A stretch of 38,742 bases of DNA from an uncultured Verrucomicrobiales bacterium (GTDB taxonomy: Bacteria; Verrucomicrobiota; Verrucomicrobiia; Verrucomicrobiales; Akkermansiaceae). Positions 14,188 through 17,820 of the stretch are shown here, in pieces. Both the position numbers and the translations under genes were made by a program. Location of the stretch: contig CALGLJ010000114.1 in the NCBI GenBank assembly GCA_937930235.1, positions 1 through 38,742 on the forward strand, written 5' to 3'. Every line of letters begins with the position of its first letter. Position 1 is the stretch's first letter. The notes beneath the pieces are model-generated. The model was not told the DNA's origin and did not search any database. It worked only from the letters and a program-made list of their open reading frames with translations.

Positions 14188-15894
14188 TTATTTCTCTTTC
14201 CTCTTAGGGCCTTGATCGCGATCAATACGGAAGGTTCTTCCGCGCAGTTTTGCTCCTCGAAGGCCGCTCATAATTTCATCCACTTGATCTTCAGGAGCAT
14301 CAATCAGGGTGTGTTTGGGAAAGAGAGTGATTTTTCCCAATGAACCATCAGGAATGCGACATTCGCGATAAATCATTCCTGCAATGTCTCCGGGTTTCAC
14401 GTGCTGTGTTTTTCCTAAATTCATGAAAAGACATGTCATTCCTTTGGCGCCATTTCGCGCAGGGCGGTCACTCCGTTCTTTGCGATCACGTTCGAATCGA
14501 TTCGAACCACGTTCACGCTTTTGCTCACGCCAATTGGAGCGCTGGCGTTCATTCGTGAACGGTTCTTTCTGGCGGTCTTCATCAATTGATTCACCTTCTC
14601 GAGTGGTCGCTTCTCGGAGAAGAGTGATCGCCGCATTGGTAATGTCTGTCGCGGTGTGTCCCTGTTCCAATAGGCGGTCGAGATAAACTTGGTAGTCTCC
14701 CAAATTTTTCTTCTCTAGGCGTTCCCGCACAGATTCAAAGAGGTGATCTGCTCGTTTTCCTTCAACCTGTTCTTTGCTCGGAACTCGTTCGCGGCGAATC
14801 GTTTGGCGAGTAAATTTTTCAATGGTCTGGAGGCGGTAGATATCGCGTCCGTAAACGAAGGTGACCGCGCGTCCCTTACGTCCGGCGCGTCCCGTACGTC
14901 CGATACGATGCACATAGTCCTCTGGATCGTGTGGGATTTCATAGTTCACTACGAGCTCCACATCATCAATATCAAGTCCACGAGCAGCGACATCGGTCGC
15001 GACCAAGAGCTCTACTTTTCCTTCTCGGAAACGATTCAAGACCCGTTCGCGCATTTGCTGAGTGATGTCACCATGAAGTCGGTCTGCGGTATAACCGCGA
15101 GCGAGCAAAGATTCAGTCACTTCATCTACGAGACGTTTCGTATTACAAAAGACGACCGCGAGCCTTGGAGGATGAATGTCGAGAAGGCGAGAAAGGACCT
15201 CGATTTTAGAGCGCTGTCGTACTTCGTAGCAGGACTGATCAATAGAGTCCACGGTGAGTGCTTTGCGCTCAATTTCTACAACTTCAGGTTCATTTCCAAA
15301 ATTCTGGATCAGTTTAGACACGCCGCGATTCATGGTAGCGGAGAAAAAGAGAATTTGCCTCTCTTTCGGAAGAGAACCGAGAAGGTCTTCCATTTCCTCA
15401 CGAAATCCCATGTCCAGCATCCGATCCGCTTCATCCAGAATGACCGTTTTGACATTCCGGGGATTAAAGCTGCGGCGTTTCAGGTGGTCCAAGAGCCGAC
15501 CCGGAGTTCCCACGACGATATGTGCCCCTTGGCGGAAGCCTTTCAACTGACGATCGATGGGAGCGCCTCCGTAGACGGGCATCGCGCGCAGAAGTTTGAT
15601 TTTTTTCCCCAGACGATGCACTTCCTCGCAAACCTGTACGGCAAGTTCGCGGGTCGGGCAGACAATGAGTGCCTGAGTTTCATTGAGCGAGGTGTCAATC
15701 TGGGAAAGGACCGGGAGAGCAAAAGCAGCGGTTTTTCCTGAACCGGTCTGAGAGAGGCCGACGAGATCTCGACCTGTCATCGCGAGTGGAATCGTTTTCG
15801 CTTGGATCGGTGAGGGAGATTCAAATCCCATGTCTTGAATCGCGGCGAGAAGAGAATCGGGAAGGCCGAGTTCGGAAAAAGGAGGAGTATCCAT
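14188..15894 (-). CDS. DEAD-box ATP-dependent RNA helicase with DbpA-type RNA-binding C-terminus
   Basis: Q motif, [35 protein letters not shown]-terminal [45 protein letters not shown]. Confidence 0.95.
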
Positions 15895-16017
15895 GAAGTG
15901 CGTGTTGAGTGATGCCGCGCGGAGTTTATCTGCGAAAGGTGCAGGACCATCCGCACTGATTTCCTAATAGCAAGAAGGAAACGTCTTGAAGTGATCAATC
16001 TTTGCTCGAGGGCAAAG

Positions 16018-16185
16018 CTACTTTTTCCTCCAAATCAAGAAAAGAAGACCACAAATTCCACCGAGTACTGCCACCGAAGGTTCAGGGACGGTCGCGGCAG
16101 ATTGTGAAACCTCCGCTCCAGCAGACTGGGAGATAAGGCTCACAAATAGGGTGGCTTTGATGAAAGCGTAGCTGATCGATCTCAT
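16018..16185 (-). CDS. Miniature PEP-CTERM sorting-signal protein (55 aa)
   Basis: Hand-translated: MRSISYAFIKATLFVSLISQSAGAEVSQSAATVPEPSVAVLGGICGLLFLIWRKK*. Signal-peptide-like N-terminus, VPEP motif, hydrophobic helix, RKK end. Below the ORF-track length cutoff. Confidence 0.75.
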   Translation of the reverse strand: MRSISYAFIKATLFVSLISQSAGAEVSQSAATVPEPSVAVLGGICGLLFLIWRKK

Positions 16186-17409: not shown

Positions 17410-17820
17410 TTACCGTCTGGAACGACTGAGCGTTTTGCTGTATCGAATTCTGACATAATATCTGAGATCTGAGAGCTGCTTTGCGGTCATGCGGCCTGAA
17501 AGTCTGCGGACATTGATTCTTTTTGCGGCGCTCACGGAGTCTTTTTTGGCAATGATTTTCTGAATCGACCTCAGATCCTTGAGTTGTTTTTTGAGAAGAG
17601 ATTGTGAGACCACTTTGCTCGCGAGTTTTGCTCGGCCGTTGTAGACTTGCTGGCCTCTTTTATATCGCTCTTGATCGATAGAACGTCTTTTGGCTCCTCC
17701 GCTGCTGCCCGCGCTGCCAGAGCTTGTAGCTCCTCCGCTGCCTCGGCTTCCACCAGAGGCGGAGGCTGATGAATAAGTGAAAAGGGAGAAGATGAGGGCG
17801 AGAATAGTAAGTTTCTTCAT
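17410..17820 (-). CDS. Secreted basic Gly/Ser-rich hypothetical protein
   Basis: Signal peptide MKKLTILALIFSLFTYSSASA, Gly/Ser-rich stretch, Arg/Lys-rich C-terminal domain; dedicated terminator downstream. Confidence 0.7.
   Translation of the reverse strand: MKKLTILALIFSLFTYSSASASGGSRGSGGATSSGSAGSSGGAKRRSIDQERYKRGQQVYNGRAKLASKVVSQSLLKKQLKDLRSIQKIIAKKDSVSAAKRINVRRLSGRMTAKQLSDLRYYVRIRYSKTLSRSRR

Follow-up and report, generated by a model that had tools for sequence, protein, structure and literature searches.

What can a PEP-CTERM tail do when almost nothing is attached to it? This question is raised by a 55-codon open reading frame (ORF) on the minus strand of a 38,742-nucleotide Verrucomicrobiales contig (referred to here as the window), which belongs to a 2.89-Mb genome bin that is 87% complete. 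PEP-CTERM proteins, found in genomes that have exosortase, carry an N-terminal signal peptide, a Pro-Glu-Pro motif, a short transmembrane (TM) helix and a basic C-terminal end (Haft et al. 2006, PMC1569441). A first-pass annotation had described the ORF as a miniature PEP-CTERM protein, in which the signal peptide is joined almost directly to the tail, and had considered that it might be a minimal substrate, a decoy for exosortase, a secreted peptide or what a deletion had left of a larger protein. PEP-CTERM proteins usually, although not by strict definition, have a passenger region separating the signal peptide from the tail; unlike them, the microprotein has none. The ORF was confirmed, with its translation exactly as claimed, and the features of the locus are as follows.

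16018..16185, minus strand: ORF of the miniature PEP-CTERM protein, 55 aa, stop codon included; translation, and homologues in 27/27 genus genomes
16114..16185, minus strand: N-terminal signal peptide, residues 1-24; predicted cut between AGA and E, motif-based
16090..16113, minus strand: linker, residues 25-32 (EVSQSAAT); unconserved
16021..16089, minus strand: PEP-CTERM tail, residues 33-55 (VPEPSVAVLGGICGLLFLIWRKK), the conserved module; PF07589 match, invariant columns, pN 0.15 and pS 0.70
16000..16017, minus strand: 6-bp hairpin directly after the stop; present, not conserved
15964..15977, minus strand: CTTCTTGCTATTAG block with CTTG (15971-15974), conserved 5' of the helicase; probable -35 element
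14188..15894, minus strand: DEAD-box RNA helicase (CshA/CsdA/DbpA-like), the constant downstream neighbour

The miniature layout was borne out: from a plausible signal-peptidase site to the PEP motif there are ~8-9 residues (the earlier estimate was ~10). A simple script, used in place of SignalP, located a small-x-small cut site closing the hydrophobic N-terminus in 26/26 homologues, the site chosen being implausible for three members; about 8-14 residues separate the predicted cut from the PEP motif in most homologues, and about 8-15 when the most plausible sites are taken. The order of signal peptide, short linker and PEP-CTERM tail is constant, and the linkers of the family are mostly acidic, Ser/Thr-rich, unconserved and variable in length. 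Once the signal peptide had been removed, the mature microprotein would consist of ~31 residues, a short stub plus the tail.

The PEP-CTERM profile check proposed by the first-pass annotation yielded a match: PF07589 (PEP-CTERM) aligned with residues 32-55 over all 24/24 positions at 19.6 bits (E 0.00097), slightly below its cut-off of 20.7 bits. Genome-wide, the window protein was the 21st best match to this model and the sole one in a frame of <100 aa, the 20 matches at or above the cut-off lying nearly all in frames of ~190-665 aa. PF07589 also matched 25/26 homologues at E<=1 (best E 6.7e-6), and TIGR02595 matched one member, weakly. The tail is very probably homologous to those of PEP-CTERM proteins. 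Its consensus across 26 sequences is [VI]PEPSxxxxGG[LI]CGxxFLxWR[RK]K, in which 25/26 homologues keep the Cys and 26/26 the Trp, with conserved GxxxG spacing and, in 25/26, a ~15-residue hydrophobic stretch that leads through WR[RK]K to the stop. By contrast, the 20-odd further PEP-CTERM tails in the window genome mostly read VPEPSS...RRRR and lack this Cys and Trp, and where they usually have PEPSS the microprotein tail has PEPS[VA]. The Pro-Glu-Pro motif itself is PEP in 25/26 homologues and PEL in 1/26 (species L068, genome G013), a change of one base in one assembly with the remaining tail kept. Since that genome has an exosortase and ~40 PEP-CTERM matches, the variant hints that cleavage is not essential to function.

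To follow up the proposal that related genomes be searched for conserved ORFs of 50-60 aa, a protein search was performed, and homologues of 50-61 aa were recovered, in short frames, from 27/27 genomes of one uncultured Akkermansiaceae (Verrucomicrobiota) genus at E 3e-7 or better. A family profile built from the homologue alignment matched the genus genomes at E 1e-18 to 1e-29. The relatives that carry the locus are uncultured Akkermansiaceae or Verrucomicrobiales bins, and a helicase search recovered most of the same loci. The profile search did not find the microprotein in any of the family's other 233 genomes; the best matches there were ~2e-8 and weaker, and nearly all were C-termini of ordinary PEP-CTERM proteins. 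No profile match at E<=1e-7 was found in a 387-genome sample from the rest of the phylum. According to Haft et al. (2006, PMC1569441), PEP-CTERM proteins rank with the fastest-evolving sets of proteins and are often gained and lost. From the window genome, two ordinary PEP-CTERM proteins, a small number, served as yardsticks for turnover; they were present in 12/27 and 1/27 genus genomes, which fits the published pattern. The microprotein is the exception: unlike the two ordinary genes tested, its gene is in every genome of the genus, of which it is a genuine core gene, and its tail evolves slowly.

Conservation is concentrated at one end of the protein. Nine columns of the homologue alignment are invariant, almost all of them in the tail, and across 26 sequences pN and pS were 0.15 and 0.70 in the tail, 0.52 and 0.73 in the signal peptide, and 0.48 and 0.64 in the linker (pN/pS ~0.75), ratios that are only ordinal because synonymous sites are near saturation. 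In the closest pairs, tail pN was 0 at a pS of about 0.1-0.6. The check for constraint at the protein level found selection on the protein, almost entirely on its tail. Because it is the tail that selection keeps, and the stub is free to vary, the working part is probably the tail. This pattern also weakens the idea of a functional released peptide, whose residues would come from the unconserved portion and not from the conserved tail. PEP-CTERM tails are usually treated as sorting tags of fast-evolving surface proteins. In the microprotein, the tag makes up nearly the whole mature protein, and the pattern of constraint suggests that a tail usually seen as disposable has a job of its own.

These data also bear on whether the frame is a gene at all. 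Its shortness and a PF07589 score just below the cut-off would suit a chance ORF, or a larger PEP-CTERM gene of which deletion had left only a remnant, but the short layout in 27/27 genomes, the purifying selection on the tail and the lack of a long version leave this explanation a negligible probability. Chance was ruled out by the conservation together with the tail constraint. As for a remnant, every relative examined for a longer version was short, with no long ORF at the locus, and the earlier suggestion of a deletion is refuted because all share the same short layout. The ORF is almost certainly a real protein-coding gene.

At every locus read, the microprotein gene lies 5' of the RNA helicase on the same strand, with 82-150 nt from its stop to the helicase start; the outer neighbours on both sides differ among genomes and the helicase is constant, which at first sight resembles functional linkage. 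Within this gap, CTTG[CT] was found in 25/25 genus loci tested (12 expected). Among loci from other genera without the microprotein, 54/54 also had CTTG 5' of the helicase (21 expected). It probably serves the helicase promoter as its -35 element, and its retention in genera without the ORF indicates that the helicase probably does have a promoter of its own. The linkage of the two genes may be passive, since there is room for a breakpoint only in the about 20-60 nt from the stop to CTTG. No conserved RNA structure was found in the gap between ORF and helicase, with no consensus pairs across 16 sequences, and an Rfam search for known RNA elements returned no match. The hairpin that the first-pass annotation had noted directly after the stop (CTTTGC-CCTCGA-GCAAAG) is present, but a functional element it does not appear to be, as relatives do not conserve it; a role as terminator or regulatory element was rejected, the hairpin having neither conservation, nor a T-run, nor a consensus fold. 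Separately, CTTG 5' of the helicase could be a useful promoter signature for Akkermansiaceae-related genera. Many relatives (e.g. L048, L050, L059, L061) also have a short dyad just 5' of CTTG, for example GTAAAC-TTTT-GTTTAC or GGAAC-TTTC-GTTTCC, which could be a regulator site and is not clear in the window.

An exosortase, the presence of which had been proposed as a further check, was detected in the window genome as one match, in a 433-aa frame, at 83 bits, far above the cut-off. Across the genus, exosortase was found in 25/27 genomes, including 13/13 of the most complete, and each genome has 15-60 PEP-CTERM matches. In a clade of nine species the gene order is, where the contig allows, microprotein, helicase, exosortase, EpsI-like protein and EPS sugar transferase, with the exosortase directly 3' of the helicase (L052:4734-5720, and the same place in L049, L051, L053, L054, L056, L058, L060 and L061); the adjoining exosortase scored 136.8 bits against a TIGR02602 cut-off of 105.55. 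In 16/25 exosortase-bearing genomes it is sited away from the microprotein locus. Because the nine exosortase-adjacent genomes form one clade in the helicase tree, by which the arrangement arose once, the adjacency counts as a single observation and was rejected as repeated independent evidence. It is nevertheless suggestive, as exosortase is the partner that would have been named beforehand. At least two exosortase types occur genus-wide (e.g. G000:C171:17575-18282), one of ~330-370 aa at roughly 120-158 bits and one of ~430-510 aa at 77-97 bits. Only the second, more divergent type was seen in the window genome, of which 87% is recovered.

Several functions could be proposed for such a protein. 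SecM, VemP and MifM are export-coupled arrest leader peptides, each a short exported ORF with a conserved C-terminus 5' of another gene. The microprotein resembles them in being short, predicted to be exported, conserved at its C-terminus and upstream of another gene, so that export-linked stalling of the ribosome on the C-terminus of the nascent chain might control the helicase, an idea that the fixed order and strand, the 82-150 nt spacing and the changing outer neighbours would suit. Such a role is nonetheless improbable because, unlike the genes downstream of those leaders, the helicase comes with a conserved promoter-like element of its own, kept in all 25 genus loci and all 54 ORF-less loci elsewhere; the gap also lacks conserved RNA structure or an Rfam match, and a constant linkage may be passive where breakpoints are rare. 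To our knowledge, the tail, a PEP-CTERM homologue, resembles no known arrest motif. Alternatively, the microprotein might be a minimal exosortase substrate, cut at PEP as other PEP-CTERM proteins are; its product, the stub, would be a tiny peptide or cap that is either exported or attached to exopolysaccharide. A complete layout (signal peptide, PEP motif, TM and basic end), PEP in 25/26 homologues and exosortase in the genomes are consistent with this, and the resemblance to PEP-CTERM proteins extends to a PEP motif at the predicted periplasmic face. However, the part that would be exported is unconserved (pN/pS about 0.75, near saturation) and variable in length, the tail is conserved beyond the level of ordinary PEP-CTERM tails and in one species the second Pro of PEP is missing, all of which make a minimal substrate rather unlikely.

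CydX, AcrZ and KdpF are small single-TM accessory proteins in which the TM sequence is the conserved part. The microprotein is likewise tiny, single-span and conserved in its TM, although its probable cleavable signal peptide and PEP motif set it apart. By analogy, it could be a small inner-membrane protein derived from a PEP-CTERM tail and serving as a subunit or regulator of some other complex, with a function unrelated to exosortase. The special tail with its conserved Cys, Trp and GxxxG spacing, the PEL variant, the distance from exosortase in most genomes and the constant RNA helicase linkage argue for this alternative; the PEP motif, needless for such a subunit and otherwise kept, and the exosortase adjoining the locus in one clade argue against it. 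We consider it somewhat unlikely, yet less so than a minimal substrate. Over these alternatives we tentatively favour a reading, itself short of an even chance, in which the microprotein works by means of its membrane tail: it would most likely sit at exosortase in the inner membrane and take part in PEP-CTERM sorting as a dedicated partner, regulator or pseudo-substrate. We prefer a tail-acting protein because constraint falls on the tail and spares the part that would be released, whereas a surface peptide would need the opposite.

Under the exosortase-partner reading, the microprotein would be exported by Sec and its signal peptide removed, leaving a short periplasmic stub, a PEP-CTERM-type membrane tail and a basic end in the cytoplasm. 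The tail itself would then act in the inner membrane at exosortase, and no peptide would be delivered to the surface. We infer export, cleavage, topology, exosortase binding and regulation from sequence. In its more specific form, which we regard as unlikely, the free-standing tail would be a genus-wide exosortase regulator that occupies or gates the enzyme or monitors its load. Against an exosortase partner stand the restriction of the adjacency to one clade, the location of exosortase elsewhere in 16/25 genomes, the presence in the recovered window genome of only the second, more divergent exosortase type and PEL in L068; the constant RNA helicase linkage is left unaccounted for. If it bound exosortase, the microprotein would give an enzyme family that has seen little biochemistry a natural minimal ligand, and would offer a handle on the regulation of sorting. 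If it were a regulator, a normally disposable sorting tail would have been turned into a functional protein.

A literature search, for which subscription journals were largely out of reach, found no paper describing a PEP-CTERM microprotein. Short-ORF filters are likely to miss a conserved microprotein gene of this kind. Further short frames were also considered. A wider miniature PEP-CTERM family in the same genus was rejected: of five other short frames, three are cut at contig ends and two seem to be broken ends of longer genes. In another genus (g8), a 62-aa miniature PEP-CTERM ORF of genome G141 (L159:138-326) has a signal peptide, short linker and tail; unlike the microprotein, it has no Cys or Trp in its tail and no helicase beside it. 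As no full-length relatives of it were found in the 72 other genomes of its genus (73 in total), a second conserved family was rejected there too. Within the window, a 136-aa ORF at 17410-17820 on the minus strand, near an Fpg-like gene, has a signal-peptide-like start, a Ser/Gly-rich stretch and then a basic region.
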